Source: an uncultured Rhizobiaceae group bacterium (lineage in GTDB: Bacteria; Pseudomonadota; Alphaproteobacteria; Rhizobiales; Rhizobiaceae). Taken from it: DNA of 64,000 bases. Below are positions 37,132-61,634 of this stretch, piece by piece. Position 1 is the stretch's first letter; every line of letters begins with the position of its first letter. Location: contig CANMVS010000012.1 of the NCBI GenBank assembly GCA_947501445.1, forward strand, positions 1-64,000, given 5' to 3'. The notes under the pieces are model-generated. The model was not told the origin of the DNA. It did no database searches and saw only the letters and a list, made by a program, of their open reading frames with translations. The translations under genes and the position numbers were made by a program.

Positions 37132-38118
37132 ATGTCCGTGAAAACCAAATTGAAAGCACTCGCTGCCGGGGTGGTTCTATCCACACTTGGTGGCATTCAG
37201 GGCGCACTTGCTCTTGATGAAGTAACCGTCGCCTATTTTCTTGAATGGCCAACCGCCAATCAGGTCGCTCAAATGGAAGAAACCTACGACAAGGAAATGG
37301 GTGTCAAACTCAAATGGCGTGCCTTTGGCAATGGCAATGAAATGACCCAGGCCATGGTCTCCGGCGACGTACAGATCGCCTATAGCCAGGGCTTTGTGCC
37401 TTTCGTGGTTGGTGTCAGCACCGGCGCACCAATTCGGTTGGTGGGCATTGCCGTCACCTATGCCGAAAATGACAATTGTATTGTGCGCAACGATGCAGGC
37501 ATCACCAAGGAAAATGCCAAGGATCTGGAAGGCAAAAAAATTGCTACCCCGATCGGTAATGTGACCCACTACAAATTGCTTCGCACGCTTGATCACCTTG
37601 GTGTTGATTCAAACAAGGTCAATCTTGTTCAAATGAACCCACCGGATGGCGCCGTTGCCCTTGCACGCGGCGATGTTGCCATGGCCTGCGGTTTTGGTGG
37701 CGCACTGACCCGCATGCGCGAATATGGTGAGCCATTGATGACCGGCGCTGAACAGGAAGCAATTGGCATCAACACGTTTGACATCGTGTCGGTAACCAAT
37801 AAATTTGCCGAGGAACATCCTGATCTGGTCGAGAAATTCATGGCTGTGACGGAAGCCGCCAATGCTGCCTACAAGTCCAACCCGGACGCAGCCTATCCAA
37901 TCGTGGCAAAGGCTTCAGGCATGGATATGGATTCAACCAAATCCACCATGGCCAACTTCGGATTTCCAAGTGCAGCCGACCAAAAAGGGCCTAACTGGCT
38001 CGGTGGTGGTGTTCAGGCCATGACCAAAGGTGTTGCAGATGTGATGGTTGAAGCAGGTGGCATGGATGCCGCCCTTGACGACTACTCCGCATTCGTCGAC
38101 GATAACTATCTGAATTAA
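37132..38118 (+). CDS. tauA: Taurine ABC transporter substrate-binding protein
   Basis: 328 residues: signal peptide MSVKTKLKALAAGVVLSTLGGIQGALA cleaved at about residue 26, then an NMT1/TauA-like fold (VTVAYFLEWPTANQVAQMEETYDKEMG, GDVQIAYSQGFVPFVVGVSTGAPIRLVGIAV, LEGKKIATPIGNVTHYKLLRTLDHLGVD). The EWPT..NQ segment is typical of taurine-binding proteins. AAGGGG precedes the start. It opens tauABC, followed by a stable 11-bp hairpin before tauB. The substrate could be taurine or an N-methylated taurine given mttB across the promoter. Confidence 0.87.
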   Translation: MSVKTKLKALAAGVVLSTLGGIQGALALDEVTVAYFLEWPTANQVAQMEETYDKEMGVKLKWRAFGNGNEMTQAMVSGDVQIAYSQGFVPFVVGVSTGAPIRLVGIAVTYAENDNCIVRNDAGITKENAKDLEGKKIATPIGNVTHYKLLRTLDHLGVDSNKVNLVQMNPPDGAVALARGDVAMACGFGGALTRMREYGEPLMTGAEQEAIGINTFDIVSVTNKFAEEHPDLVEKFMAVTEAANAAYKSNPDAAYPIVAKASGMDMDSTKSTMANFGFPSAADQKGPNWLGGGVQAMTKGVADVMVEAGGMDAALDDYSAFVDDNYLN

Positions 38119-38130
38119 TGCCGCAATCAG

Positions 38131-38155
38131 ACAGGCAGCACTAAGTGCTGCCTGT
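38131..38155 (+). terminator. Stable hairpin between tauA and tauB
   Basis: ACAGGCAGCAC-taa-GTGCTGCCTGT is a perfect 11-bp stem with a 3-base loop, followed by TTGTT. It probably acts as a partial terminator or 3' stabiliser that keeps TauA in excess over TauBC. Confidence 0.6.
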
Positions 38156-38190
38156 TTGTTCTCATTCAATTCCAACTGCGGAGTGAGCAA

Positions 38191-38991
38191 TTGACCGGCA
38201 TAATAATCGATACTGTTTCAATGGTCTTCACGCTACCCGGCGGCGGCGAAGTCCATGCTCTGAATAATGTAAGCCTCGACATAAAAGAAGGCGAGCTTGT
38301 TTCGGTCCTTGGCCCATCCGGCTGCGGCAAGACAACTCTTTTGAACATCGTTGCAGGATTTCTGGCACCAACTTCAGGTGAAGTGCGACTGAACAACCAT
38401 GTGGTCAAGGGCCCCGGCTCGGAGCGCGGCATGGTCTTTCAACAGGGTGCGCTGTTTGAATGGCTGACCGTTGAGCAGAATGTTGCGTTTGGCCCGAATA
38501 TGGCAGGCAAGCCCAAAGCGGAAACAGCCCGTAAAGTTGAACATCTGCTGGATACCGTCGGTCTTTCCGATTTTGGTGAAAAACCGGTTTATCAATTGTC
38601 TGGTGGCATGCAACAGCGTGTTGCACTGGCCCGTTGTCTCGCCAATGATCCGGACGTGATCCTGATGGACGAGCCGCTCGGAGCACTGGACGCGCTCACC
38701 CGCGAAAAAATGCAGGGCCTGGTCCTCAAGCTATGGAAAGAAACCGGCAAAACCATCATCCTGATTACCCACTCGGTAGAAGAGGCTCTGTTTCTCGGTG
38801 AAAAGCTGATTGTCATGGCACCGCGCCCCGGTCGGATCGAGAAAATCTACGAGCTTCCATTTGCCGAACAGGGGATGACGATGAGCCCGCGTGACGTAAA
38901 AGCCAGCGTCGATTTCGTCGAAAAACGTGAAGAAATACTCTCCATGATCTGGGAGATGGAAGAGGAAATCATGGGGCAGGCAACGGCCTGA
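38191..38991 (+). CDS. tauB: Taurine ABC transporter ATP-binding protein
   Basis: 266 residues: Walker A GPSGCGKTT (about residue 46), Q-loop VFQQGALFEW, signature LSGGMQQRVALARCLANDP, Walker B VILMDEPLGALDALTR and switch His ITHSVEEALFLG, the nitrate/sulfonate (Ssu/Tau) ATPase type. The start is TTG 38191 with GGAGTGA 4 bases upstream; no better ATG exists. It follows tauA by 72 bases across the hairpin and precedes tauC by 14 bases. Confidence 0.88.
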   Translation: MTGIIIDTVSMVFTLPGGGEVHALNNVSLDIKEGELVSVLGPSGCGKTTLLNIVAGFLAPTSGEVRLNNHVVKGPGSERGMVFQQGALFEWLTVEQNVAFGPNMAGKPKAETARKVEHLLDTVGLSDFGEKPVYQLSGGMQQRVALARCLANDPDVILMDEPLGALDALTREKMQGLVLKLWKETGKTIILITHSVEEALFLGEKLIVMAPRPGRIEKIYELPFAEQGMTMSPRDVKASVDFVEKREEILSMIWEMEEEIMGQATA

Positions 38992-39005
38992 GTGGGAGAC
39001 ATAAT

Positions 39006-39872
39006 ATGAAAGACAAAAAACAGCCTTCTGATGTTGCCATCTGGCTGGGTATCGCCGACAACACCTTCACACGGCAAAAGACAGTTAAATTTGGCGATGC
39101 GAGCGCGGTCAACTCCGGCCGTTTCTACAGCATCCTCATCGTCTTTGCGCTTGGTGCTCTTTGGGTGCTGAGTTCTGTCATGGGTCTTGTTGAACCATTC
39201 TTCTGGCCGACCATTGGCGGAACCTGGGACAGGCTTTACCTGCTCGTCACAGAGGGTTTTCGCAATACATCCCTTTGGGAGCATATCGGCATCAGCGTGT
39301 ACCGGGTTATTTCCGGCGTACTTTATGGGTCACTGGTTGGCATTCCACTTGGTTTTGCCATGGGCTTGTCATCGACCGCGCGCGGTCTGTTTGATCCAAT
39401 TGTGGAATTCATGCGCCCGATCCCGCCTTTGGCACTGATACCATTGATCATTTTGTGGTTCGGCATTGACGAAGTGGCAAAAATATTCCTGCTCTTTCTG
39501 GCTTCGCTTTTCATCATGACCATCGCCGCGCGTTCAGGTGTATCAAGTGTCCGCATCTCAAAAGTTCATGCTGCCTACTCGCTGGGTGCATCAAAACTTC
39601 AGATATTAAGACACGTCATACTGCCGAATGCGCTACCGGAAATTTTCACTGGCCTGCGCACATCCATGGGTGTGTGCTGGGGCACTGTTGTTGCCGCTGA
39701 ACTGGTTGCGGCAGACAAGGGCGTTGGTTCCATGATCATGATCGCCAAGAACTTTCTCCAGACCGACACAGTGGTTATTGGCATCATCATTATCGGCGTC
39801 ATTGGCTATGCCATTGAGATGCTGATGCGGTTTCTGGAAAGGCGCCTGATCCCCTGGAAGGGAAAAGGATAA
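39006..39872 (+). CDS. tauC: Taurine ABC transporter permease
   Basis: 288 residues of a BPD_transp_1 permease with about six membrane segments and the EAA-type cytoplasmic loop region KVHAAYSLGASKLQILRHVILPNALPEIFTGLRTSMGVCWGTVVAAELVA, characteristic of SsuC/TauC. The hydrophilic N-terminus (about 35 residues) is longer than in E. coli TauC. It completes tauABC and is followed by a strong terminator 31 bases after its stop. Confidence 0.88.
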   Translation: MKDKKQPSDVAIWLGIADNTFTRQKTVKFGDASAVNSGRFYSILIVFALGALWVLSSVMGLVEPFFWPTIGGTWDRLYLLVTEGFRNTSLWEHIGISVYRVISGVLYGSLVGIPLGFAMGLSSTARGLFDPIVEFMRPIPPLALIPLIILWFGIDEVAKIFLLFLASLFIMTIAARSGVSSVRISKVHAAYSLGASKLQILRHVILPNALPEIFTGLRTSMGVCWGTVVAAELVAADKGVGSMIMIAKNFLQTDTVVIGIIIIGVIGYAIEMLMRFLERRLIPWKGKG

Positions 39873-39969: not shown

Positions 39970-40851
39970 TCAAGTGAGAACATTGTGTTCAATGAAGTCA
40001 GCCGCCTGATCACCCTTGAGAGATCGGGACCAAAGCTGATTTGTCACTGACTGATAGAGCTCTGTTGCATCAGGTGCCGAGCTGATGGTCGCGACACCCA
40101 GGCGCACATTGGCAAATGCGCCCAGACGATACGGGCTGACAGCCACCGATTTTTTGCTTGCCTGTTTGAAAATCTGGAGGCTTGCGCCAGGCATTGAATC
40201 CACCACGACACCCAGCTGAACGCCGATTGGCTGATTGCGCAGAAGCTGAACGATGTTTTCTATCTCCACACGTGCCACCGAGCGCCGTTTTTCAATATCT
40301 ACACCCCTGGGTTTGTGTGCACCAACAAACCCAAGACGCAAAAACTGGTTAAGTTCTGCGGCTGATGTCAAGCTGATGACGTTGGGTGTGCGCTTGCGAT
40401 AGGTGATTTTTCGCGCATGTAAAATTCCAATGAGCGTGTCGACTTCGTTCAGGGCCTGTTGATAGTTTTCGACGTTGTCTGGAATGCTTTCCTTCAATAT
40501 CAGCGGCAGATATTCATCATAAACATCTGTTGTCAAAAGGTAGGAAACCGGACCAAACAGAACTGTTATCTGGTCAACATTTTCTTCCAGCTGTCGCATA
40601 CGTTCAAAGAAACTGATTGCAGATGAGATATATTCAACCCCTGCTCCAAGCAATGTGGGCAGAGACACGTCAAGCAGGTCGGCGATTTTCACAAGCGTAT
40701 CAATTTTGGCTGGCTGACCGGATTCATATCGATAGATCGCGGCCCTCGAAACACCGGAACGCTTTGCCAGTTCTTCCGGTGTCAATCCTGCACCCAAGCG
40801 AAATGCTTTCATGCGCTCGCCGATTTCCTCAACTGATATGCCGTGATTCAC
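39970..40851 (-). CDS. XRE-family regulator, probable controller of the TRAP/PyrDK operon
   Basis: 293 residues. The N-terminal HTH_3 domain is at about 9-66 (IGERMKAFRLGAGLTPEELAKRSGVSRAAIYRYESGQPAKIDTLVKIADLLDVSLPTLL). It is followed by a 220-residue C-terminal domain with no clear name, which looks like a periplasmic-binding-like or ligand-sensing fold (about 95-290). GTG 40851 is chosen with AGGG 9 bases upstream; a TTG at 40860 has no spacing to that site. It is divergent from the TRAP operon across a 185-base region holding a perfect dyad and a promoter, a classic local regulator layout. The ligand is unknown. Confidence 0.75.
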   Translation of the reverse strand: MNHGISVEEIGERMKAFRLGAGLTPEELAKRSGVSRAAIYRYESGQPAKIDTLVKIADLLDVSLPTLLGAGVEYISSAISFFERMRQLEENVDQITVLFGPVSYLLTTDVYDEYLPLILKESIPDNVENYQQALNEVDTLIGILHARKITYRKRTPNVISLTSAAELNQFLRLGFVGAHKPRGVDIEKRRSVARVEIENIVQLLRNQPIGVQLGVVVDSMPGASLQIFKQASKKSVAVSPYRLGAFANVRLGVATISSAPDATELYQSVTNQLWSRSLKGDQAADFIEHNVLT

Positions 40852-40901
40852 GTGCCACAACCCTTATTTCTCGATACTGCCCCCGTATTGTTGGCATTAA
40901 A

Positions 40902-40926
40902 TGCGACACGTTACACATTTGTCGCA
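40902..40926. promoter_or_regulatory. TGCGACA-N11-TGTCGCA dyad
   Basis: A perfect 7-bp inverted repeat in the middle of the divergent region between the XRE regulator and the TRAP operon; a likely operator for the regulator. Confidence 0.55.
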
Positions 40927-40951
40927 AAAAAGCAAAAACATTCGCCAAAAA

Positions 40952-41000
40952 TCTCAATTATGAGAATATTCTTGACAGGGCGACTTTCCATCCATAGCTT
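40952..41000 (+). promoter_or_regulatory. TRAP operon promoter with adjoining dyad
   Basis: TTGACA (40972-40977), 17-base spacer, TAGCTT (40995-41000). A TCTCA-atta-TGAGA dyad (40952-40965) sits just upstream of the -35 box, where an activator could contact polymerase. The start codon of the binding protein is 37 bases downstream. Confidence 0.5.
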
Positions 41001-41036
41001 TATCGACTTCTGATACCGCGCATCTGGGAGATCATA

Positions 41037-42065
41037 ATGAAAGCGTTGATCAAATTTACAAAAATGTCACGAAGAGCTCTACTTATTGGTACGGCTGTCA
41101 CCCTGGCGGCACCGGCAGCATGGGCAGCTGACTTCACAGCAAAGATTGGCCACCTTGAATCCGACCAGCAGTCTCGCCACATTCACCTGGAAAAGGTCGG
41201 CGAACTGGTTAAAGAACGCACGAATGGAGCCGTCGAGTTCCAGATTTTCCCGTCCGCTCAACTCGGCAATCAGCGTGAGATGACAGAAGGTGTTCAATTG
41301 GGCACCCTGGAAGCGACCGTATCACCAGCGGCCTTTATCGGCGGTTTCAACCCTGCCGTTTCAATTCTTGATATCCCATTCCTCCTGCCGACCGATGCCG
41401 ACACGGCTCAAAAGCTGCGTGAGGGCGCATTCGGCGCGGCTCTGCTGGATTCTTTTTCATCAAAGGGCGTTGTGGGCGTTGCCCTTTGGCCAAACGGTCT
41501 GAAGAATTTCACATCAAACAAGCCGCTCGACAATCTGGATTCCTTTAGCGGTCAGAAATTCCGCGTTATGGATTCCAAAATCCTGATTGAGCAGTTCGAC
41601 GCACTGGGAGCATCCGCAATCGCTCTGCCATTTGGCGAACTTTATACCTCGCTTCAAACCGGTGTCGTGGATGGTCAGGAAAATCCGCTCGACACCATTC
41701 AGCGTATGAAGTTCCATGAAGTGCAGAAGCATCTTGTGATCTCCGAGCATGGTGCCATGGAAGATGTGGCAATGTTCAATCCAATTTGGTGGAACAGCCT
41801 TCCCGAAGAATACCAATCGATTATCACCGATGCATTCAAGGAAGTCATTCCCGAGCTTCGTGCCCACAAGGCCAAGGCCGTTGAAACAGCCCTTGCCGTG
41901 ATCAAGGAAGGTGACATCAACGTGCGTGTCGCTTCGCAAGAAGAAAAAGCTGCTCTTCGCGACAAGATGTATGACAAGGCAAAGGCCGCCTACATCGAAC
42001 GTGCGGGTGATGCTGGCAGGGAACTCATCGCGGTTTATGAAAAAGCCTATTCTGACGCTCAATAG
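41037..42065 (+). CDS. TRAP transporter substrate-binding protein (DctP type)
   Basis: 342 residues. The signal region MSRRALLIGTAVTLAAPAAWA (cleavage at about residue 30) precedes a TRAP_DctP fold: AKIGHLESDQQSRHIHLEKVGELVKERTNGAVEFQIFPSAQLGNQREMTEGVQLGTLEA, GVVGVALWPNGLKNFTSNKPL, QTGVVDGQENPLDTIQRMKFHEVQKHLVISEHG. The Arg expected to bind a ligand carboxylate lies in the KFRVMDS region. First gene of the operon with dctQM, a PyrK/PyrD-like pair and an amidohydrolase. Orotate, dihydroorotate or N-carbamoyl-aspartate are candidate ligands (inference). Confidence 0.85.
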   Translation: MKALIKFTKMSRRALLIGTAVTLAAPAAWAADFTAKIGHLESDQQSRHIHLEKVGELVKERTNGAVEFQIFPSAQLGNQREMTEGVQLGTLEATVSPAAFIGGFNPAVSILDIPFLLPTDADTAQKLREGAFGAALLDSFSSKGVVGVALWPNGLKNFTSNKPLDNLDSFSGQKFRVMDSKILIEQFDALGASAIALPFGELYTSLQTGVVDGQENPLDTIQRMKFHEVQKHLVISEHGAMEDVAMFNPIWWNSLPEEYQSIITDAFKEVIPELRAHKAKAVETALAVIKEGDINVRVASQEEKAALRDKMYDKAKAAYIERAGDAGRELIAVYEKAYSDAQ

Positions 42066-42161
42066 CGCCAGATACACCAGACGGGGTGTGGCACATATCG
42101 GCCAGGCCCCGTTTTCTTTTCTAAACCGTCGACAGTGTCGACCCCAAAATAGCTGAGTGTC

Positions 42162-42680
42162 ATGCATTATCTTCGGCGTTTGGAACGGGTATTCCTGGTT
42201 TCAGTCTTTCTTTCCATGGTGGTATTGTTTTCGCTCAATGTGCTTGCACGTGAAGTCGGTGGAACTTTTGCCAGTCAGTTGGCCTGGGTCGATGAAGCTG
42301 TCCGCCTGATGAACATCTTTCTCGTTTTCGGAGCGCTTGGCCTCGCTTTGGAACGAGGTCGCCATGTTGGCATCGATACGTTGAGGGAAGCACTGCCCAG
42401 GGCTGCAAGAAACACAATCCGAAAAATCGTTGATGCGGTTGGATGTCTGTTTTGCGTCTATATGACCTACCTGGCCTACCAGTTGGTTGTTTTCGTTCTG
42501 AACACCGGCCAGACAAGCCCGACACTCGATCTTCCAATGGGCTGGGTTTATATGGCGCCCGTCATTGGCTTCGGTCTGCTTGGCTTTCGGTACTTCCTGA
42601 GTTTTTTGTCCATTATTGATCGTTTCGGCCCTGATGAAAATGACGACGAAAATCCTTCTGTGGAAGGAACCCGGTCATGA
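42162..42680 (+). CDS. TRAP transporter small membrane subunit (DctQ type)
   Basis: 172 residues with four membrane segments and the DctQ pattern LERVFLVSVFLSMVVLFSLNVLAREVGG ... WVDEAVRLMNIFLVFGALGLALERGRHVGID. It couples the binding protein to the large subunit. It overlaps dctM by 4 bases (ATGA). It follows the binding-protein gene by 96 bases. Confidence 0.85.
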   Translation: MHYLRRLERVFLVSVFLSMVVLFSLNVLAREVGGTFASQLAWVDEAVRLMNIFLVFGALGLALERGRHVGIDTLREALPRAARNTIRKIVDAVGCLFCVYMTYLAYQLVVFVLNTGQTSPTLDLPMGWVYMAPVIGFGLLGFRYFLSFLSIIDRFGPDENDDENPSVEGTRS

Positions 42681-43960
42681 TTTTATTGGTCATACTGCTT
42701 GCCGCCGTTTTGCTCATTGCCGGATTTGAAATGTTGCTGGTGCTTGGCATCCCGGCGCTTGCAACAAAAATGATTTTCTATAGCTCGATGCCAGACCTCG
42801 CCTTCATTCAAAAGACCCTGGGCGGTATCAACCACACAACCCTGCTTGCAATCCCGTTCTTCATTTTTGCAGCACAACTGATGGGCTCGGGTCAGATCGC
42901 CAGTCGTTTGACCGGTTTGGTCAAGGCGCTTGTCGGGCACAAGCGTGGTGGCATGGGTTACACGGTCATCGGCGGTTCCATGGCGTTTGGTTCAGTCTCC
43001 GGCTCAGCACCGGCCACGGTCGCGGCAATGGGCCGTATGGTATATCCGCAAATGCGCAACGCCGGATTTTCTGACAAGTTCAGCCTGGGTTTATTGGTCG
43101 CCAGTGCCGAAACCGCGCTGTTGATCCCGCCATCCATTACTTTCATCATATACGGTTGGATGACAGGTTCGTCGATATCACGGTTGTTTGCCGGTGGCCT
43201 TGCCGTCGGGTTGGTTCTCGGTCTCGCCTTTGCCATTTTGGTAAAGCTGGAGGCCAAACGTTCCGGTGTTCAATCATTCGAAAAAACATCCGGGCGGGAA
43301 AAGCTTCAGGCAGTCAGGGATGCCGGTTGGTCACTGGGCATGCCCGCCATCATACTCGGCGGTATTTACGCCGGTATTTTCACCCCGACAGAAGCTGCTG
43401 CAGTCAGTGTCGTCTATGCGATCGTGATCGAGGCCTTTGTTTACAAAAATCTGGGTTTTGCCAAACTCGTCGAGTTGACCGAACGCGCCGCGATCTCAAC
43501 GGCCACGATCTTTATCCTGCTGGCTATGGGTGGCGTGCTGGCGTTCTTCGTTACACTGGCACAGGTACCGGCACAAATCACTGAATTCCTTGCCGCGATT
43601 GACGCCGGACCCATTACGTTCCTGCTTGCGGTCAATATCTGCTTTCTGATTGCAGGCATGTTCATCGATCCAAACTCTGCCCTGCTCATCCTGGTGCCAC
43701 CGCTTTATCCGGTTGCCACCGCGATGGGCATCGACCCTATTCACTTCGGCATGATCGTCACGCTCAACATAGGCATGGGCATGATAACCCCGCCCTTTGG
43801 GCTCGACATATTTGTCGCATCATCGACCCTTGATAAACCCGTTATGAGCATCATCAAAGGCGTGTGGCCGTTCGTCATTGCCAACATCATCGTGCTGATG
43901 ATCATCACCTATATACCGTCGATCTCCCTGTTCGTCCCGAACCTGATTTTCGGCCAATAG
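42677..43960 (+). CDS. TRAP transporter large permease (DctM type)
   Basis: 427 residues with about twelve membrane segments and the DctM signature GSMAFGSVSGSAPATVAAMGRMVYPQM, GGIYAGIFTPTEAAAVSVVYAI and IDPNSALLILVPPLYPVATAMGIDPIHFGMIVTLNIGMGMITPPFGLDIFV. It imports carboxylate substrates by a sodium or proton gradient. It is followed by GGAGG and the GTG-started PyrK-like gene 11 bases later, so the transporter and reductase are probably one transcript. Confidence 0.88.
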   Translation: MILLVILLAAVLLIAGFEMLLVLGIPALATKMIFYSSMPDLAFIQKTLGGINHTTLLAIPFFIFAAQLMGSGQIASRLTGLVKALVGHKRGGMGYTVIGGSMAFGSVSGSAPATVAAMGRMVYPQMRNAGFSDKFSLGLLVASAETALLIPPSITFIIYGWMTGSSISRLFAGGLAVGLVLGLAFAILVKLEAKRSGVQSFEKTSGREKLQAVRDAGWSLGMPAIILGGIYAGIFTPTEAAAVSVVYAIVIEAFVYKNLGFAKLVELTERAAISTATIFILLAMGGVLAFFVTLAQVPAQITEFLAAIDAGPITFLLAVNICFLIAGMFIDPNSALLILVPPLYPVATAMGIDPIHFGMIVTLNIGMGMITPPFGLDIFVASSTLDKPVMSIIKGVWPFVIANIIVLMIITYIPSISLFVPNLIFGQ

Positions 43961-43971
43961 GAGGCTTGATT

Positions 43972-44814
43972 GTGAAAAGCATAGCTTTGGATACTGCACC
44001 AGGAACCGGATATGCCAATCCAATTCATGAGGTCGAATGCATCATCAGGAGCAACGACACCGTCAACGGTGAATATCGCCTGCTTGTGCTGAATGCGCCG
44101 CTAGAATTACTCGATTGTGAACCCGGTCAGTTTTTCCATCTGCTCTGCCCGGTGTCGGGTACGTTCAAACCGTATTTGCGGCGCCCTATGAGCATCTATG
44201 GATACTATCCCGACAGGGGCGAATTGCATTTTCTCTATAAAGTCACGGGTGAAGGTACGTCGGCCATTGCCACATTGACGACCGGTGACACGCTCAATGT
44301 TCTGGGGCCGCTGGGTCGTGGGTTTGATATTTTGCCGAATTGGCAAAACCTGCTTCTGGTTGCGCGCGGTGTCGGATTGGCGACACTGGCACCATTGGCT
44401 TTGAAATCGCGGCGGCTCAATCGTAAATTGACGGCTATCTGCAGCGCCCGCTCCAGAAAACTCCTGTTGTCGCTCGACTATTTTAACGACCTTGGTGTGC
44501 GTGTTATCGCGGTCACAGACGAAGATGGCACATCGAGTGTTGAATCAATGCGCTCGATTATCGAAGGTCTGATTGCCGAAGACCCTATCGATGCAATGTA
44601 CACATGCGGATCAAACCGCATATTGAAACTGCTTCAGTCCGTCGCAGCTACACACCGCATTCCAGGCCAAATTGCGCTGGAGCAGCAAATGGCCTGCGGC
44701 ATCGGCATGTGCCAATGTTGCGTGCGCGCCTTCCATAGAGATGGTGGCATTGTCAATGAGCGTGTTTGTAAAGAAGGTCCCGTCTTCCACCTGCAGGAGG
44801 CAGTGGGATGCTAG
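43972..44814 (+). CDS. PyrK-like dihydroorotate dehydrogenase electron-transfer subunit
   Basis: 280 residues: FAD-binding LRRPMSIYGYY (RPxSI motif, about 65-75), NAD-binding VARGVGLATLAPLA, and a C-terminal cysteine cluster C-G-I-G-M-C-Q-C-C ... C for a [2Fe-2S] centre at about 244-262. This is the PyrK subunit of the NAD-linked class 1B dihydroorotate dehydrogenase. The open frame extends upstream within dctM; GTG 43972 is chosen for GGAGG 7 bases upstream. It overlaps the PyrD-like gene by 7 bases. Most alphaproteobacteria use a single-subunit quinone-linked PyrD, so a class 1B pair in a transporter operon is unexpected. Confidence 0.83.
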   Translation: MKSIALDTAPGTGYANPIHEVECIIRSNDTVNGEYRLLVLNAPLELLDCEPGQFFHLLCPVSGTFKPYLRRPMSIYGYYPDRGELHFLYKVTGEGTSAIATLTTGDTLNVLGPLGRGFDILPNWQNLLLVARGVGLATLAPLALKSRRLNRKLTAICSARSRKLLLSLDYFNDLGVRVIAVTDEDGTSSVESMRSIIEGLIAEDPIDAMYTCGSNRILKLLQSVAATHRIPGQIALEQQMACGIGMCQCCVRAFHRDGGIVNERVCKEGPVFHLQEAVGC

Positions 44815-45752
44815 ATATCAGCACTCAAATCGGCACGCTCAAACTCAAGAACCCGATCATGCCCGCTTCGGGAACCTTCTCTGAAGACCTTGCTGATGTA
44901 TTTGATCTGGACGTTATCGGCGCGCATGTCACCAAGACAGTCACACGGGAAAAGCGCAGCGGAAATCCGACACCACGGGTGTGTGAAGTACGCGGGTCCA
45001 TGCTCAATTCAATCGGCATACCAAGCAAGGGCGTCGAGGCGTTCAAGAAGGACGTCATTCCCTTTTACAGCCGCTACAATGCGCCATTGATCGTCAGCAT
45101 TTCAGCCGGCAGCGCGGATGAATTTGCATCCCTGTGTGAAGAGATCAGCGTGCCCGGTGTGGCGGCAGTTGAAGTAAACATATCCTGTCCGAATATAAAA
45201 GATGACGGCAAGGCATTTGCCATGCGTCCTTCAACGACGCATGCAGTGATGCGAAAACTGCGAGACTCGACCGACCTGCCCCTGTGGGCAAAATTAACAC
45301 CAAACACGGGTGAAACAACTGAAGTCGCCAAGGCGGCGGAAGAGGCCGGAGCGGACGCGCTGGTGGTTTCAAACACGCTGCTGGCCATGGCCATCGACAT
45401 CAAGACAAGACGTCCAAAACTTGGAAACCTCATGGGCGGTCTGTCAGGCCCCGCCTTCAAACCAATAGCACTGCGCATGGCGTATCAATGCGCCAAATCA
45501 GTCGATATTCCCGTTATCGGTTGTGGTGGCATTTCAACGATTGAAGACGTCATTGAATACCTCATCGCCGGTGCCGCTGCAGTTCAGATCGGAACGGCAA
45601 CCTTCATCGAACCAAAGATCATGGCGAGAATGGTTGTAGATCTGGCGGTCTATCTGGAAACCCAGGGGTTGAGCAGCGTCAGACAATTGGTTGGCTGCGT
45701 TGATGACAAGGGAGCGTCCGATGGCCTTGTATTCATGGAGGCAGCCCCATGA
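44808..45752 (+). CDS. Class 1B dihydroorotate dehydrogenase catalytic subunit (PyrD-like)
   Basis: 314 residues of an FMN TIM-barrel: LKNPIMPASGTFSED, the substrate loop SGNPTPRVCEVRGSMLNSIG, the catalytic-base region VNISCPNIKDDGKAF (Cys in NISCPN marks class 1), GCGGISTIEDVIEYLIAGAAAVQIGTAT. It uses the PyrK-like partner to exchange electrons with NAD(H). Either direction is possible: orotate reduction in catabolism or oxidation in synthesis. It is followed by a 4-base overlap with an N-carbamoyl amidohydrolase, which fits orotate -> dihydroorotate -> carbamoyl-aspartate -> aspartate if a dihydroorotase is supplied elsewhere. A dihydropyrimidine dehydrogenase is less likely because the residues follow PyrD. 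Confidence 0.83.
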   Translation: MLDISTQIGTLKLKNPIMPASGTFSEDLADVFDLDVIGAHVTKTVTREKRSGNPTPRVCEVRGSMLNSIGIPSKGVEAFKKDVIPFYSRYNAPLIVSISAGSADEFASLCEEISVPGVAAVEVNISCPNIKDDGKAFAMRPSTTHAVMRKLRDSTDLPLWAKLTPNTGETTEVAKAAEEAGADALVVSNTLLAMAIDIKTRRPKLGNLMGGLSGPAFKPIALRMAYQCAKSVDIPVIGCGGISTIEDVIEYLIAGAAAVQIGTATFIEPKIMARMVVDLAVYLETQGLSSVRQLVGCVDDKGASDGLVFMEAAP

Positions 45753-47053
45753 GCCAGGCAGATAGCCAAATCCTGACCTGGGAAGACGGTTGCAATGGGA
45801 TATTTGATGCGGAGAAAACTGCGGCCCGGATTTTTGATGATGTTGCGGCTTTTTCAGCCGATAAAACGGGTATAAGCCGCCCGGCTTTTTCTTCCATAGA
45901 GACAAAGACGCTCAAGTATCTGGAGGATTACGCGCGCAAACAGGGGCTCTCGGTTGACTACGATGCTGGTCAGAACGCCGTGTTTGCGCTCCCACAGGAC
46001 GAACAGGCCAGCAAATATGTGCTTGTCGGCTCACACGTTGACAGCGTGCCAAATGGTGGCAATTTCGATGGCCTGGCCGGGGTTATCGCTGGTCTGCTTT
46101 GTCTCGCGCGCGCAAAACACCACGGTGTGCAATTTTCCAGGCCCGTCAAGGTAATCGCCATGCGTGCAGAGGAAAGCGCCTGGTTTGGCCCATGCTATAT
46201 CGCTTCCAAAGCGTTGCTTGGCAAACTGGAAGATGATGAGCTGAGCACTCTTCACAAGGGAGACGGCCGCGAACTGGGTGCCCATATGGCCGATATTGGC
46301 ATCGATATGAACCGGGTGCGCCAGCATAAACCTTTGATTGATAGCGATCGTATCGACGCCTATATCGAACTGCATATCGAACAGGGTCCCTTGTTGATTG
46401 AAAAAGATATGCCTGCTGCTGTTGTCTCGGGTATCAGAGGCAATATTCGCCACAAAAAAATCAGATGTATTGGTGAGCCCGGCCACTCAGGCGCTGTTCC
46501 ACGGGCTTATCGCAAAGATCCCGTCCTTGCCATGGCTGACCTGCTTTCACGGCTCGATGACAGCTGGCTCACCATATTGCAAAAGGGCCAGGACCTCGTT
46601 CTGACGAGCGGCATGGTCGGGACTGATCCGGAAAAACATGCATTGAGCCGTATTCCCGACCTGGTGGATTTCAGTCTGGATTTTCGCAGTCAAAGCGCCG
46701 AAGCGCTGGATTCGATGCGAGACCTGTTGAAACAGGAAATGCGGACGGTGGAACGCGAGCGCGGTGTCAGGTTCGAAGTCGATACCGAACTACATACGGC
46801 CCCTGCCCTTTGCGACGGCGGAATTGTTGATGGTCTTTCGGCGTCCATGGCCAGCGTCAATCTCAATCCGTTTACAATGCCTTCTGGCGGTGGACACGAT
46901 GCAGCTGTTTTCGCAAATGCGGGAATACCTGCTGCGATGATCTTTGTGCGCAATAAAAATGGCTCGCACAATCCCGATGAGGCCATGGAAATTCCTGACC
47001 TGATTGTCGGCACGAACATCATATACAATTACCTCACGGGGACGGGACAATGA
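45749..47053 (+). CDS. M20-family Zn amidohydrolase (N-carbamoyl amino acid / ureido hydrolase)
   Basis: 434 residues of the HyuC/AllC branch of M20 peptidases: VGSHVDSVPNGGNFDGLAGVIAGL (first metal His and bridging Asp), AMRAEESAWFG (Glu-Glu), YIELHIEQGPLLIEKDM, a dimerisation insert and the C-terminal MPSGGGHDAAVFANAGIPAAMIFVRNKNGSHNPDE. It splits N-carbamoyl groups to amino acid, CO2 and ammonia. The EESAWFG variant of the usual EEGSRF differs from allantoate amidohydrolases. It overlaps PyrD by 4 bases. In the proposed pathway it would be a ureidosuccinase (carbamoyl-aspartate amidohydrolase); beta-ureidopropionase or hydantoinase-linked roles are alternatives. Confidence 0.83.
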   Translation: MSQADSQILTWEDGCNGIFDAEKTAARIFDDVAAFSADKTGISRPAFSSIETKTLKYLEDYARKQGLSVDYDAGQNAVFALPQDEQASKYVLVGSHVDSVPNGGNFDGLAGVIAGLLCLARAKHHGVQFSRPVKVIAMRAEESAWFGPCYIASKALLGKLEDDELSTLHKGDGRELGAHMADIGIDMNRVRQHKPLIDSDRIDAYIELHIEQGPLLIEKDMPAAVVSGIRGNIRHKKIRCIGEPGHSGAVPRAYRKDPVLAMADLLSRLDDSWLTILQKGQDLVLTSGMVGTDPEKHALSRIPDLVDFSLDFRSQSAEALDSMRDLLKQEMRTVERERGVRFEVDTELHTAPALCDGGIVDGLSASMASVNLNPFTMPSGGGHDAAVFANAGIPAAMIFVRNKNGSHNPDEAMEIPDLIVGTNIIYNYLTGTGQ

Positions 47054-47550
47054 GTATTTTGGTGGTCCCCGGCGGTGAGACAGCCGGTTCTCCTTTTGCA
47101 ACCGGGCTGACTGATAACCCGAATCTGCCCATGCATTGCAGGGACAAAAAACCAAATAGCTTTGGTCACCACCCACAAATTGAAGGCAATGCGATCGACA
47201 GTAAACGTATCCTGCCTGTTGAGGATTTGATTGCTGATGACGGCTGCAAAATCTGGTTTTGTGAAGCAATTCGCAAAGCAGGTGCGCAGTTCACCGATAA
47301 GCATGCAGTTCCAATACAGCATTTCCCCGCGACCCACGCGGCACCCGAGAAGAGTGGCCTGTGCCTTCCCTGTCTTGCCACCAGACGCGATGTTCTCACG
47401 GTCTCCAACAAGCAGAACTGCTTCAACAGGAAACCACGACAAAAGATCAGGAGCTTTCTCGATAACCCTCTCACCTGGTCGGGTGTCCATGATGGAGCCA
47501 CCGAAACATCAACTATCAACAAGAAGGATCAGTCCAATGAGTTTGACTGA
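47050..47550 (+). pseudogene. Possible degraded ThuA/glutamine-amidotransferase-like gene
   Basis: A 166-codon frame starts as an ATGA overlap with the amidohydrolase, a normal operon start, yet the product looks wrong: basic, without a clear domain. By eye, IWFCEAIRKAGAQFT and the following HAVPIQHFPATHA resemble the helix-strand and HxAxxxFPxT pattern of ThuA/DUF1355-type proteins, and LPPDAMFSRS in another frame resembles their next conserved block. This suggests a frameshifted, shortened remnant of a fifth or sixth operon gene. It is equally possible that the region is non-coding with chance similarity. The call is weak. Confidence 0.3.
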
Positions 47551-47854
47551 GCTTGTAGAAATCATTGAAGACCAGGGGAAAGGCGTACGCGCCTATGCCG
47601 AGTGTGCCCGCATGTGCCGGGATCGGTTGCAATCTCGCTCTGGCCTGTCCGCAGCCTATTTGTTGCTCACTATTGCCGCTGACAAATTCGTCGATGCCTA
47701 TGATGATCAGCCTTTGCTGAGTCAACGCGCAGAAGATGAATTTCTGCGCTTCAAAGGCTACGTTGATCAGCTTCAGGCAGGCGAACAGCAGACAGATGCC
47801 ACGGTAAAATTGGAGACGTTGAACCGAATCGCAGCTGAAATTGCCAATCACTAA
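47537..47854 (+). CDS. Small conserved hypothetical protein
   Basis: 105 residues from ATG 47537 with GAAGGATC upstream. The sequence is soluble and mostly helical by composition (SLTELVEIIEDQGKGVRAYAECARMCRDRLQSRSGLSAAYLLLTIAADKFVDAYDDQPLLSQRAEDEFLRFKGYVDQL). It has no signal, membrane segment or familiar motif. It may be the last gene of the TRAP/PyrDK operon or an independent unit; a hairpin follows the stop. I do not recognise a function. Confidence 0.55.
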   Translation: MSLTELVEIIEDQGKGVRAYAECARMCRDRLQSRSGLSAAYLLLTIAADKFVDAYDDQPLLSQRAEDEFLRFKGYVDQLQAGEQQTDATVKLETLNRIAAEIANH

Positions 47855-48011: not shown

Positions 48012-50447
48012 TCAGCCCCTCAACCGCTCATTTTGCGGGTCATAAATAACCTCGGGAACAACTGTTGCCCGCCGCTTTTCACCAAAAATATCCACAAATA
48101 GGGAACTATCCATCGCACTGTGCTCGGCATCGACATAGCCAAGCGCAATGGACTTGCCGGTACGGTGGCCAAAGCCACCGGATGTCACAAGACCGACATT
48201 GGTTTCACCGACAAAGATAGGACTGCCATAGGGCGCCTGCGTCCCGTCTGCCGGTTCCAGTTCCATGGCGACAAAGCGCTGGGCTACGCCATTTTGGCTT
48301 TGTTCGACAAGCGCTTCGCGACCAATGAATTGTGCCTTGTTCAACTTCACAAAGCGGTCAACACCAGACGTTAGTGGCGTATATTCCGAAGACAGATCCT
48401 GTTTCCAGCTACGATAACCCTTTTCAATGCGCATGGAGTCCATGGCATACATGCCGAAATGCCCGATGCCATATTCTTCGCCCGCCGCAACAAGCAGCGC
48501 ATGAACCGCGCCCATGGTCTCCATGGGCATATGCAGCTCATATCCAAGTTCGCCGACGAAGTTGACCCGCAGTACCAGTCCCTGTGCCATGCCGACGGTG
48601 ATCGGCCGTGCACACAACCATGGAAGTGCGGCGTTTGAAACATCATTGTCAGCAATCTTTGCCAGTATATCGCGTGACCTGGGCCCGGCGAGGACCAGTG
48701 TGCCGTAACGGGCCGTGATGTCCTCAAGCACCACCGTGCCACCCGTTGGCATATGCTGCTGCAACCAGTCGCGATCATGCCAATAACCTGCCGCCGGACC
48801 AATCAGCCAGAAGCGGTTTTCCGCCAATCGGGTTACAGTAAGTTCGGTCACCACCCGCCCGCTTTCAGCGCAGAAATAGGCCAGTGATACACGGCCCTGC
48901 CGTGGCAATGCGCCGGTAATCATACTGTCCAGCCATGCATCTGCACCCTCGCCCGACAATACAAATCGGGTGAATCCGGTCAGATCCAGAATTCCGGCAC
49001 TTTCCACGACGGTTTTGACTTCCTGCGCCACAGCATCATCAAAATGCGGTCGCCCGAATGTCATGTCCGGTTCGGCCTTATCGCCTTCGCGGGCAAACCA
49101 CAGCGGCCTTTCCCAACCACCAAAGGACCCAAACTGAGCACCATTGGCAGCCATCACATCATACAGCGGCGATGTTTTTGCAGGTCGCCCGGCTGGCCAC
49201 GGTCTGTGTGGCAAATGCATGGCATATTCGTTCTGGTAGACCTCAATGGCCTTGACCGTTGCATAGGTTTTTGTCGCAAAGTCGGTAAAGCGGCGCGGAT
49301 CGAGCATCCACAGATCCAGCTCTGTTTCGCCCTCGGCAATATATTCAGCGATTACCTTTCCGGCACCACCTGCCTGACAAATGCCAAATGTAAACACACA
49401 GGCTTCATAAAAATTGGTCAAACCCGGTGCCGGTCCGACAAGCGGCATGCCGTCAGGTGCATAGGGTATCGGGCCATTGATCACTTTCTGCACACCGCCC
49501 GATGCCAACATTGGCACCCGTTCGCAGGCGGCATTGATGTACCACTCCAACCGGTCCAGATCATCGGGATATAGCTGGAAGGCAAAATCCTCAGGCGTAC
49601 CTTCCTTCAGCCAATGGGGCGTTGCCTGCCACTCATAGGGTCCAAGAATGAGGCCATTGCCTTCCTGACGCAAATAGTAGCTGTCGTCCGGGTCACGCAG
49701 CAATGGAATGCTCTTTTCCAGACCTTCCAGCTCAGAAATCGCTTCTGTTACCAGATACTGATGGGACATGCTGACCATCGGAACATCACGGCCAACCATG
49801 CGGCCTATTTCATCAGCGTAGTAACCTGCTGCATTGACAACGATATCCGCGTGAATGGAGCCCTTGTCTGTGGTTACGTCCCAGCTTCCGTCAACCCGCT
49901 GTTCGATCGCCGTTACCTTGGTAAAGCGAACAATCTTCGCACCCTTGTCCCGCGCACCTTTTGCAAAGGCCTGGGTAAGCTGGGATGGGTCAATGTCGCC
50001 GTCTTCACTGTCCCAAAGGCCGCCTTCAAGATTATGAATCTCCAGCCAGGGGTAATAGGTGTCGCGCATTTGCGTTGGCGTCAGCATTTCCATGTCCATG
50101 CCAGCCGCATTTGCCATGGCAGCGACATGTTCAAACTCCTGCATGCGCTCTTTGGATTGGGCCAGCCGGACTGCGCCGGTCATATGCCGGTTGATCGGAT
50201 AATCCACCTCATCGCCCAGCCGGTTGTACAGCCTGGAACCATAGTTTTGCAGCTTCATCAGGTTCAAATTGCCCGTGAAGTTGGGCGTATTGCCCGCTGC
50301 GTGCCAGGTGGAACCGGACGTCAGTTCGTTTTTCTCAATCAGCACCGTGTCGGTTATGCCCGTCTGGGCAAGATGATAAAGACAACTTGTACCGACAGCA
50401 CCGCCGCCGATAATGACCACATGCGCGTGGGATGCGAGCTCAGCCAT
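48012..50447 (-). CDS. Second dimethylglycine/sarcosine-dehydrogenase-like FAD/GcvT fusion
   Basis: 811 residues with the same architecture as the protein at 27741-30212: DAO domain (VVIIGGGAVGTSCLYHLAQTG, LTSGSTWHAAGNTP with the likely flavin-linked His), linker and GcvT-type folate domain (LTVTRLAENRFWLIGPAAGYWHDRDWL, NFVGELGYELHMPMETMGAVH, MDSMRIEKGYRSWKQDL, SGGFGHRTGKSIALGYV). The two proteins are clearly diverged paralogues. It probably oxidises an N-methyl amine and delivers the one-carbon unit to folate. AGGAGG precedes the start. A divergent-free neighbour 21 bases upstream on the same strand encodes an XRE-cupin regulator, probably co-transcribed. Confidence 0.82.
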   Translation of the reverse strand: MAELASHAHVVIIGGGAVGTSCLYHLAQTGITDTVLIEKNELTSGSTWHAAGNTPNFTGNLNLMKLQNYGSRLYNRLGDEVDYPINRHMTGAVRLAQSKERMQEFEHVAAMANAAGMDMEMLTPTQMRDTYYPWLEIHNLEGGLWDSEDGDIDPSQLTQAFAKGARDKGAKIVRFTKVTAIEQRVDGSWDVTTDKGSIHADIVVNAAGYYADEIGRMVGRDVPMVSMSHQYLVTEAISELEGLEKSIPLLRDPDDSYYLRQEGNGLILGPYEWQATPHWLKEGTPEDFAFQLYPDDLDRLEWYINAACERVPMLASGGVQKVINGPIPYAPDGMPLVGPAPGLTNFYEACVFTFGICQAGGAGKVIAEYIAEGETELDLWMLDPRRFTDFATKTYATVKAIEVYQNEYAMHLPHRPWPAGRPAKTSPLYDVMAANGAQFGSFGGWERPLWFAREGDKAEPDMTFGRPHFDDAVAQEVKTVVESAGILDLTGFTRFVLSGEGADAWLDSMITGALPRQGRVSLAYFCAESGRVVTELTVTRLAENRFWLIGPAAGYWHDRDWLQQHMPTGGTVVLEDITARYGTLVLAGPRSRDILAKIADNDVSNAALPWLCARPITVGMAQGLVLRVNFVGELGYELHMPMETMGAVHALLVAAGEEYGIGHFGMYAMDSMRIEKGYRSWKQDLSSEYTPLTSGVDRFVKLNKAQFIGREALVEQSQNGVAQRFVAMELEPADGTQAPYGSPIFVGETNVGLVTSGGFGHRTGKSIALGYVDAEHSAMDSSLFVDIFGEKRRATVVPEVIYDPQNERLRG

Positions 50448-59304: not shown

Positions 59305-60927
59305 CTATTGTGCTGCTTGCATAGCTGGCACGCTGCCAGGTATGGGCGTTTCTTTACGCACGTGACCACGGATGGTCATGAAAATATTATAGGCCATGAC
59401 CAGACCGCCACTGAGATACATGATGCCTCCAACGGTACGAAGGATGTAGTAGGGTTTCATGGCCGCGACCGTTTCCGCGAAGGAATAGACCAGAAAGCCC
59501 TGATCATCGTATTCGCGCCACATCAGGCCCTGCTGGATACCCGCCACCCACATCACTGCCGCATAGACAACAATACCCAGCGTTGCGAGCCAGAAATGCC
59601 AGTTGACCAGACGCAGTGAATAGAGCTGCGGACGGAACCATAGTTTCGGCACCAGATAGTAGATTGCACCAAAGGATATCATCCCGACCCAGCCCAGAGC
59701 ACCGGAGTGCACATGGCCGATTGTCCAGTCGGTGTAATGGCTCAGGCTATTGACCGCTTTGATTGACATGACTGGTCCCTCAAATGTCGACATGCCGTAG
59801 AATGCAACCGATATGACCATCATGCGGATAATCGGATCTGTTCTGATTTTATCCCAGGCGCCCGACAGGGTCATGAGACCATTGATCATCCCACCCCAGC
59901 TTGGCATCCAAAGCATGATTGAAAAGACCATGCCCAAAGTCTGCGCCCAATCGGGCAGCGCCGTGTAATGCAAATGGTGTGGTCCTGCCCAGATATAGAG
60001 AAAGATAAGCGACCAGAAATGAATAATTGACAGCCGATAGGAATAGACTGGCCGTCCTGCCTGTTTGGGAATAAAATAATACATCATGCCCAAAAAGCCC
60101 GCTGTCAGAAAAAAGCCAACCGCGTTATGGCCATACCACCATTGGGTCAGGGCATCCTGAACACCGGCAAAGGCCGAATAGCTTTTTGTCCCCAGAAAGG
60201 ATACGGGAACAGCCAGATTGTTGACGATATGCAGCATTGCAATTGTGATGATGAATGCAAGATAGAACCAGTTGGCCACATAAATATGTGGTTCCTTGCG
60301 CTTGACGAGCGTTCCCATGAAAACAACCAGATAAGCCACCCAGACAAGCGTCAACCAAAGGTCGACGTACCATTCAGGTTCCGCATATTCCCGGCTTTGC
60401 GTGATGCCGAGCAAATAACCGGTCGCTGCCATGACAATGAACAGCTGGTAACCCCAAAAGACAAACCATGCGAGATTTCCACCAAAGAGGCTGGCCCGGC
60501 AGGTGCGTTGCACCACGTAAAAGGATGTGGCGATGAGTGCATTGCCACCAAAGGCGAAGACAACGGCTGACGTATGCACAGGTCTCAGCCGGCCAAAATT
60601 GAACCAGGGCTCAATGTTCAGGTCAGGAAATGCAAGTTGCGCAGCAGCGGCAACACCGACCGTGAAACCAATCACACCCCAAAACAACGTGGCAATGGTT
60701 CCATATTTGACGACTTCGTCAAAATAGCCCGATTCGCTCAAATTTCCTGATTGTGCACCTGCAGTGCTGAAGGATGCATTGCGCAGCAACACCGCCACAG
60801 AACACAAAAGCACAAAAAAGAGCACCCACATATGCGCTTCAAACATACTGTCACGCGCAAACGCCGCGCCAAGCAGAGCCAAAAAGGCCCCTATGCCGAC
60901 GGCAATAGTTTCGACACCAAATCTCAT
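59305..60927 (-). CDS. ccoN: cbb3 oxidase catalytic subunit CcoN
   Basis: 540 residues, polytopic heme-copper oxidase: heme His ligands in [15 protein letters not shown] and [32 protein letters not shown] (His-Tyr region), then [18 protein letters not shown] and [18 protein letters not shown], the CuB and heme ligand regions. The longest frame adds 47 unlike codons; ATG 60927 (GGGGAATATC upstream) begins the usual [11 protein letters not shown]. High-affinity oxygen reduction. A perfect FNR box lies 94-107 bases upstream. Confidence 0.95.
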
Positions 60928-61020
60928 AGATATTCCCCAATCAGGCAGCCGCACACGGTCCGAGAAACAACAAGTCTCGCAGACCAGGCGGCAAAATGCC
61001 AGCAAACGTAATCGCATTCC

Positions 61021-61034
61021 TTGATCTCGATCAA
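61021..61034. promoter_or_regulatory. FNR/FixK box between ccoN and the hemerythrin-like gene
   Basis: TTGAT-ctcg-ATCAA matches the FNR consensus at every position. It is 94 bases from ccoN and 92 bases from the divergent gene at 61126, so it can serve one or both. Confidence 0.9.
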
Positions 61035-61125
61035 TGCGATGAAATAACGCTGCGCCAAGATGACCCAAATAAAAGTCAAATTACCAGGTTGCAGAAAAGA
61101 GAAATCAAATGCTCATGGGAACGAA

Positions 61126-61611
61126 ATGAATATTGATACAGCACTCGCTGTTATTGAGGATTCCGCCCGGTATTTTCGTTCACCACACGGAGAGCCACTC
61201 GTCGTTTTGGAGGAAGCCCATCACGCACAACTGACGCTGTGCGAGATGCTTGAGCATATTGCAGATTCCATTCCCGAGCAGATTGATCGCCACGCCTGCC
61301 GCACGCTCGCCGACAATCTCGCCACCCTCATTTCAGACATTCATACATTCGAAGAGGATGTACTTTTCCCCCTCGTAGTGGATCGCTTTGGCGCGACGCG
61401 AAGCATTGATCAGACAATCATGCGGTTGAAATATGAACATTGTGAAGATGCATGCTTTGCCGAGGAATTGACTGAAGCTCTGCGTGAATTGGGAACCAAA
61501 AAAACACTGCGAAACCCGGAGGCGACAGGTTATATGCTGCGTGGTTTTTTTGAAGCCATGCGTCGCCATATCGCTTTTGAACGCGAACATTTGGGGCAAC
61601 TGCTCAGATAA
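61126..61611 (+). CDS. Hemerythrin-domain (HHE) protein
   Basis: 161 residues from ATG 61126 (GGGAACGA upstream; an ATG at 61060 adds unlike residues). It is helical with the diiron-type ligands of a hemerythrin bundle: LEEAHHAQLTLCEMLEHI (HH, about 34-45), DIHTFEEDVLFPLVVDRF (H...E, about 70-80) and RRHIAFEREHLGQLL (H...E..H). It probably binds or senses oxygen or NO, or protects iron centres. It is divergent from ccoN across a perfect FNR box, which suggests induction under low oxygen. Confidence 0.75.
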   Translation: MNIDTALAVIEDSARYFRSPHGEPLVVLEEAHHAQLTLCEMLEHIADSIPEQIDRHACRTLADNLATLISDIHTFEEDVLFPLVVDRFGATRSIDQTIMRLKYEHCEDACFAEELTEALRELGTKKTLRNPEATGYMLRGFFEAMRRHIAFEREHLGQLLR

Positions 61612-61634
61612 AATGTGTTGAGCTTTTCACGCGT

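Follow-up and report, generated by a model that had tools for sequence, protein, structure and literature searches.

Why would a bacterium of the Rhizobiaceae keep an NAD-linked class 1B dihydroorotate dehydrogenase (PyrDK) in one gene set with a tripartite ATP-independent periplasmic (TRAP) importer and an M20-family hydrolase? The set lies on contig 12 (C12; other contigs are cited as C2 and C3) of an uncultured member of this family with a genome of 6.82 Mb in 110 contigs, within the stretch of 64,000 nucleotides analysed here and called the window. With a probability of about 0.8, we read it as a substrate-inducible operon for the uptake and reductive breakdown of orotate, a compound that is mostly regarded as no more than an intermediate in pyrimidine synthesis. 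The initial annotation, made from the sequence alone, had named the set as a candidate for reductive orotate catabolism, and this proposal largely holds: it is supported by the likeness of the binding protein to the structure 4NN3, by a class 2 pyrD elsewhere in the genome and by pyrC genes beside the hydrolase gene in relatives.

Family searches confirmed the XRE regulator, the TRAP genes, the PyrK-PyrD pair and the M20 hydrolase that had been assigned to one gene set (Table 1). The DctP, DctQ, DctM, PyrK, PyrD and M20 frames are all intact and follow each other in the same direction almost without gaps (41037-47053), and the importer is complete, with the binding protein and both the small and the large permease above their family cut-offs. 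The genes up to 47053 had been recognized correctly, but the operon continues past the M20 end to 47854 with a pyrE remnant and a conserved small gene, both overlooked before. Gene content, synteny, the operator and a close likeness to an orotate-bound protein are the observations from which the following argument proceeds.

Table 1. Features of the operon and its upstream region (positions in the window; scores are given against the family cut-offs).
Feature	Position	Strand	Evidence or remark
XRE-family (HTH_3) regulator	39970..40860	-	Pfam HTH_3 53.7 bits vs 23
Dyad TGCGACA-N11-TGTCGCA	40902..40926		Real but not conserved
Conserved operator ATCTCAATTATGAGAA	40951..40966		Consensus TTCTCA-N4-TGAGAA, 49/52 upstream regions
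TRAP substrate-binding protein DctP, predicted orotate-binding	41037..42065	+	TIGR00787 227.8 vs 175.05; likeness to 4NN3
TRAP small permease DctQ	42162..42680	+	Pfam DctQ 100.6 bits vs 28.3
TRAP large permease DctM	42677..43960	+	TIGR00786 387.7 bits vs 268.45
PyrK electron-transfer subunit (FAD, NAD, 2Fe-2S)	43957..44814	+	DHODB_Fe-S_bind 42.6 bits vs 23.9
Class 1B PyrD, predicted orotate reductase	44808..45752	+	NF005574 355.2 vs 269; TIGR01037 324.4 vs 270
M20 hydantoinase/carbamoylase-family protein, predicted N-carbamoyl-L-aspartate amidohydrolase (ureidosuccinase)	45749..47053	+	TIGR01879 277.7 vs 204
pyrC/pyrE deletion remnant, open frame of 166 aa	47050..47550	+	52% identity to PyrE residues 81-236
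Conserved 105-aa all-helical protein	47537..47854	+	In 58/64 loci; M20 fusion in some relatives

Relatives were collected by a PyrD scan with one genome per species, and the best 80 of the 148 relatives were fetched. The 64 loci whose M20 match reaches 45% identity were kept, with no minimum length (the match is partial in L020 and L044), while the 16 loci without such a match (L061, L068-L082) were dropped. The PyrK-PyrD-M20 core is thus present in 64 of the 80 fetched loci, together with TRAP genes in 56 and with an ATP-binding cassette (ABC) system in eight. Including the plasmid operons described below, the core is kept while the transporter differs, being of the TRAP, ABC or major facilitator superfamily (MFS) kind.

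No other single observation argues as strongly for orotate as the predicted substrate as does the likeness of DctP to PDB entry 4NN3. The two proteins share 205 of 314 aligned residues (65%), and in a comparison with PDB sequences 4NN3 is by far the nearest solved relative of DctP (448.9 bits, against 172 for the second). According to the accessible part of a 2024 Biochem J paper (PMC11668362), 4NN3 is a TRAP solute-binding protein of Maridesulfovibrio salexigens with orotic acid bound in the crystal, in which a Lys replaces the Arg152 of other binders; no catabolic operon is named alongside it in that part. The initial annotation had made much depend on whether the importer binds an unrelated ligand, and the nearest solved relative points to orotate. 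DctP reproduces the carboxylate-site pattern of 4NN3 with K156, R176, N216 and F199, which correspond to Lys152, Arg173, Asn213 and the aromatic residue 196 in 4P47 numbering; Asn76 of the paper falls on N78 or Q79 of DctP, and 4NN3 is identical there either way. The Lys is found in 60 of the 61 aligned rows (the window, 4NN3, 56 DctPs of the fetched loci and three Firmicutes DctPs), L071 being the only row with Arg. Orotic acid is also listed among recently found TRAP ligands in the accessible text of a review (PMC5812351).

PyrD exceeds the cut-offs for class 1 NAD-type enzymes and matches 5ue9_A with an E-value of 1.8e-74. Cys127, Lys43, Lys162 and Asn124/129/189 occur in 75 of 75 aligned rows and Asn67 in 74; from class 1 structures we take these to be the catalytic Cys (not Ser) and the ring-binding Asn and Lys residues. 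Since the 75 rows include relatives outside the operon, these residues support the enzyme class rather than the operon alone. PyrK contains the four-Cys motif (Cys 247, 252, 255 and 271) and matches 5ksw_B with 97.7 bits. PyrDK is predicted to run as an NADH-dependent orotate reductase, a direction suggested by its setting. Class 1B PyrD, which the initial annotation had called rare in this group, is uncommon: at E<=1e-70 it was matched in 13 of the 150 genomes sampled from the order and in 8 of 90 genera.

The M20 protein would complete such a pathway. Its structure model matches L-N-carbamoylase 3n5f_A best (E 6.3e-36), and also allantoate amidohydrolase. The metal-site residues H96, D107, E142, H209 and H407 are present in 63 of 63 operon M20s; in the alignment, about 4 of the 22 comparator M20s lack residues of this site. 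At positions 300-301 all 63 operon proteins have Ser, Thr or Ala followed by Arg or Lys, a pair with Arg also found in the operon M20s of Agrobacterium, Roseomonas, Variovorax and P. putida, while the PydC-like protein of the same genome and the Firmicutes M20s have Asn followed by Val or Ile (5/5). Less related M20s are mixed here, with Arg or Lys in 4 of 22. The positive charge of Arg/Lys301 would suit the second carboxylate of carbamoyl-aspartate, and together with the operon context it leads us to predict N-carbamoyl-L-aspartate as the substrate (EC 3.5.1.7).

The initial annotation had observed that only a dihydroorotase is missing from the pathway, and this is right: pyrC has been deleted from the window operon, yet it follows M20 in relatives. 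DNA alignments to L004, L005 and L007 run through M20, skip pyrC and the start of pyrE, and resume inside pyrE; pyrC and the first ~76-80 pyrE codons were apparently lost in one deletion. The remnant starts at an ATG overlapping the M20 stop, which is the pyrC start in L005 and L007, and carries pyrE from about residue 79-81. It reaches 124.3 bits with the PyrE model NF001729 (cut-off 245). Compared with L007, it differs by 0.30 and 0.25 at codon positions 1 and 2, against 0.12 and 0.03 for the intact L007-L008 pair; at position 3 the values are 0.61 and 0.47. Having lost one third of the protein, and with raised change at codon positions 1 and 2, it is unlikely to be a working PyrE enzyme; the survival of its open frame is unremarkable (P ~0.06-0.11 in simulations with 15-20% neutral change). 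The last 14 bases of the remnant are also the first of the small gene, and this overlap may keep the translation of the two coupled.

Among seven genomes of the same genus, the three other operon carriers (G001, G002 and G004) have an intact pyrC-pyrE pair directly after M20 and hold a second pyrC and pyrE as well; G003, G005, G006 and G007 are without an operon-type M20 and have single pyrC/pyrE copies. The window genome also keeps a second pair at C3:179367-181115, including a class II dihydroorotase (C3:179367-180386), and, at C2:257697-258851, a dihydroorotase-like protein that is 38% identical to the L071 enzyme of class I type; a complete pathway is therefore still possible. In the stretch G000:C3:179326-183590 (L117) the second pair is followed by carboxynorspermidine synthase and decarboxylase-type genes. 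Across the 64 loci, M20 is followed by PyrC and PyrE in 26, by PyrE alone in 17, by PyrC alone in 6 and by neither at full length in 15, which gives PyrC in 32 loci and PyrE in 43. Of the last 15, L039 and L042 end with their contig, and L010 and L045 retain partial PyrE and PyrC matches. In L005 the pair consists of a class II dihydroorotase (429.2 bits with TIGR00856, cut-off 292.95) and an orotate phosphoribosyltransferase (380.2 bits, cut-off 245). This variable absence of pyrC and pyrE, while the rest stays, suggests that PyrK-PyrD-M20 is the core set.

The XRE gene is divergent from the operon, and its product has a conserved C-terminal part of ~200 residues; 60 of the 64 loci include a homologue within their fetched stretch, in varying place and direction (weak and partial in L059). 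The initial annotation had pointed to an operator-like dyad at 40902. This dyad is real, but in a set of 52 regions reaching from the regulator to the first operon gene it is perfect only in the window, the next best having two mismatches (in 1 of the 51 others), and we rejected it as the operator. The conserved site lies instead at 40951-40966. With at most two mismatches its consensus occurs in the 49 regions of Table 1, perfectly in 9, whereas ~0.56 would be expected from Markov-randomised regions; the same half-sites with other spacers occur in 0-5 of the 52. It is conserved also in seven ABC-type loci examined. In the window it stands just upstream of a TTGACA at 40972-40977, and its core, TCTCAWWWWTGAGA, occurs once in the 6.82-Mb genome when no mismatch is allowed. 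In the stretches tried from the Variovorax, P. putida and Roseomonas operons no close match to it was found (4-6 mismatches). The XRE protein may bind this site and sense orotate.

The last gene of the operon codes for a small protein, which we followed with a profile built from 42 homologues. Matches are weak in L063 and L066, and the profile search did not find it in L028, L039, L042, L043, L055 and L064 (L039 and L042 end early). It forms the C-terminal part of M20 in seven loci, six of the ABC type and L065, as well as on an Agrobacterium plasmid, and recurs in the Variovorax (E 9.1e-16) and P. putida (5.3e-13) plasmid operons. Within the order it was found in 9 of 150 genomes, each time within ~3.2 kb of an operon-type PyrD; such a PyrD (at least 72% identity) was present in 10 of 150 genomes in a separate draw with the same totals. 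The fusion to M20 and this co-occurrence suggest the hydrolase as the probable partner of the small protein. Neither NCBIfam nor Pfam gave a match for the window protein, and its homologue in L035 matches only DUF3069, with 12.5 bits against a cut-off of 25. Its structure model consists of five helices with a pLDDT of 93.6, for which no structural relative was found in the PDB (best E 2.2). A match to CagY in a profile search of PDB sequences (E 4.1e-6) was taken as chance, as no single stretch passes; other matches were weaker.

Put together, these genes would allow the following route. DctPQM would import orotate, which PyrDK would reduce to dihydroorotate with NADH. A dihydroorotase, which must come from elsewhere in the genome since the pyrC of the operon is deleted, would open the ring to N-carbamoyl-L-aspartate; the pyrC product of C3 or the multifunctional-type protein of C2 are the candidates. 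The M20 enzyme would then release L-aspartate, CO2 and NH3, probably assisted by the small helical protein. XRE would probably repress the operon at TTCTCA-N4-TGAGAA and respond to orotate or to an intermediate of the pathway.

Several other explanations have to be weighed. Class 1B PyrDK is biosynthetic in Bacillus, and in L077-L080 and L082 PyrC- and PyrE-like genes surround PyrKD in a pyr-operon-like manner, both of which would fit a biosynthetic NAD-linked dihydroorotate dehydrogenase in an accidental neighbourhood. We give this explanation a probability close to nil. A second, quinone-linked pyrD, whose absence would have made the operon enzyme the biosynthetic one in the view of the initial annotation, is present at C3:414035-415126 (class 2, 497.7 bits vs a cut-off of 366), and PyrDK is therefore not the sole dihydroorotate dehydrogenase of the genome, in which PreA was also found. 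We searched 31 genome entries, 29 alphaproteobacterial and two from Firmicutes: a class 2 PyrD (at least 44% identity) was found in 29 of the 29, of which 25 carry the operon (28 and 24 if G035 and G075, which look like one genome, are counted once), and was not found in the Firmicutes entries G078 and G079 by the same search. The neighbourhood is moreover conserved in 64 loci and has its own operator. The operon enzyme shares class and subunits with the biosynthetic PyrDK of Bacillus; unlike it, it is made redundant by the class 2 PyrD of these genomes and falls on a separate branch of the PyrD tree. The tree has 38 sequences, taken from selected loci and including four plasmid proteins, and the program flagged some long branches; in it, a 100/99 branch parts the operon PyrDs and three of four M20-near Firmicutes PyrDs from the Bacillus pyr-operon PyrDs and three of deltaproteobacterial type.

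Salvage of orotate, in which imported orotate is converted to uridine monophosphate by PyrE while PyrDK and M20 merely drain a surplus or balance the pool, agrees with the 43 loci that have PyrE in the operon and with four operon genomes in which it is the sole PyrE found. We consider it unlikely, as PyrE after the hydrolase was not found in 21 of the 64 loci (L039 and L042 being contig-ended) and has left only a decayed remnant in the window, whereas PyrK-PyrD-M20 is retained; a carbamoyl-aspartate hydrolase would also destroy an intermediate of de novo synthesis. A different ring substrate, such as hydantoin or a substituted pyrimidine, with M20 as a general N-carbamoyl amino acid hydrolase, appears quite improbable. 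The breadth of the M20 family would allow it, and in L061 a related PyrKD stands with a molybdenum hydroxylase and a Hydantoinase_A protein, yet DctP is close to an orotate-bound protein, the orotate-site residues of PyrD are unchanged, and in many relatives the neighbours are class II PyrC and PyrE, enzymes of the orotate pathway.

Catabolism of orotate remains the preferred reading, and a number of points weigh against it. Every reaction, the ligand, the inducer and the direction of PyrDK are predicted from sequence. The M20 family takes many N-carbamoyl substrates, our comparison set holds no characterized N-carbamoyl-aspartase, and the M20 match covers only 53% of the length in L020 and 41% in L044. 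PyrK reaches none of its NCBIfam equivalog cut-offs (the best score is 126.2, against a cut-off of 314), and the L071 PyrD groups on the Bacillus biosynthetic side. The PyrKD of L061, from a gammaproteobacterial metagenome-assembled genome, lies within the operon group with the molybdenum hydroxylase in place of an M20 match, so an operon-type PyrD may serve other pathways. The window operon is without its own dihydroorotase. Finally, the search of the 25 operon-carrying entries gave four (G062, G068, G069 and G071) with no PyrE other than that of the operon, and therefore the operon pyrE, and perhaps pyrC, may also feed pyrimidine synthesis.

Degradation of orotate via dihydroorotate and carbamoyl-aspartate occurs in Clostridium (Zymobacterium) oroticum, an anaerobic clostridium. 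The predicted steps are alike, with NADH-linked class 1B reduction of orotate, a dihydroorotase and hydrolysis of N-carbamoyl-aspartate (a likeness at the level of steps). In contrast to the C. oroticum account, the proteobacterial operon has a TRAP importer, an M20-family hydrolase, XRE with a conserved operator, the small protein and often pyrC/pyrE. PMC10395836 includes the class 1B enzyme of C. oroticum in a table and among its references. Reductive uracil catabolism (PreTA/PydA, PydB, PydC) follows the same logic, the ring being reduced and opened and the carbamoyl group cut off, but the operon differs from it in the predicted substrate orotate, in PyrDK instead of PreTA, in a distinct M20 subfamily and in the TRAP importer. 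What would be new is a proteobacterial variant of a known pathway, with a conserved operator and a small protein family. The initial annotation had supposed that an importer-reductase operon was undescribed in alphaproteobacteria. Indeed, no description of an orotate-catabolic TRAP operon or proteobacterial module was found in a literature search that most subscription papers lay outside of, but the operon is a module of many genera and not a single case. A mutant-fitness paper on Ruegeria pomeroyi (PMC10041152) names pyrE and TRAP genes, in its accessible part without linking them.

If this reading is true, orotate would be a nutrient passing between cells, and many proteobacteria would carry, on plasmids included, a module for its import and degradation that could serve as a genomic marker for orotate use. 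It would further give a function to class 1B dihydroorotate dehydrogenases annotated as pyrimidine-biosynthetic and a narrow identity to a hydrolase now labelled 'Zn-dependent hydrolase', and add a small protein family to study.

The module occurs in several arrangements. The eight ABC loci (Rhizobium, Neorhizobium, Oryzicola, Xaviernesmea and another Rhizobiales) have no TRAP genes and carry divergent ABC genes with a uridine-phosphorylase-like protein. An Agrobacterium plasmid shows the same arrangement, with a phosphorylase of 149.9 bits (under the cut-off of 280.3) and a binding protein of the NMT1/SsuA kind. The combination of an ABC importer with a uridine-phosphorylase-like protein suggests orotidine as the substrate of this variant. 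It replaces TRAP in L049-L051, L053, L056, L057, L059, L083 and L121, and a related phosphorylase was also seen in TRAP-type L006, L036, L037, L039, L042 and L052 and in L068. Plasmids of Variovorax and Pseudomonas putida carry MFS-PyrK-PyrD-M20-dihydroorotase and a Roseomonas plasmid MFS-PyrK-PyrD-M20-PyrE. Plasmid matches comprised 33 records, of which the best 20 were listed, mostly partial; under the match of the six best (three of Nitratireductor, and one each of Roseicitreum, Pacificitalea and Paracoccus) lies TRAP-PyrK-PyrD-hydrolase. We tentatively propose, at somewhat less than even odds, that PyrK-PyrD-M20 and the small protein form a mobile module for orotate catabolism in alpha-, beta- and gammaproteobacteria, in which a helical subunit or domain aids the hydrolase, the Rhizobium-type variant with ABC and uridine-phosphorylase-like proteins being fed by orotidine. 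In Firmicutes L068, L069, L071 and L074, one stretch contains PyrKD, an M20 protein (29-30% identity) and a dihydroorotase/allantoinase-type amidohydrolase, in three cases with TRAP genes.

The P. putida plasmid p716811-VIM (L122) is typed as conjugative; there the dihydroorotase is followed by the small protein, and the module by a malic-enzyme-like gene and a methyl-accepting chemotaxis protein. The PyrKD of L061 adjoins TRAP genes in addition to its molybdenum hydroxylase and Hydantoinase_A protein, and this set perhaps belongs to another ring-degrading pathway.

Just before the XRE gene of the window end TauABC-like ABC transporter genes (37132-39872). They were considered as part of the system without finding support, one permease being seen against two in the Rhizobium-type ABC set, and no phosphorylase gene is among the open reading frames between these positions. 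About 20 kb downstream of the operon, C12:67792-77395 (L119:3792-13395) holds a reductive uracil cluster with a D-hydantoinase-type dihydropyrimidinase, a carbamoylase, the aminotransferase AptA, PreA and a PreT-like protein. On the minus strand at 48012-50447, an 811-aa protein joins an FAD oxidoreductase part to a GcvT-like part, in the manner of sarcosine/dimethylglycine dehydrogenases, and the cbb3 oxidase subunit CcoN and an FnrL-like regulator are encoded at 59305-62435.

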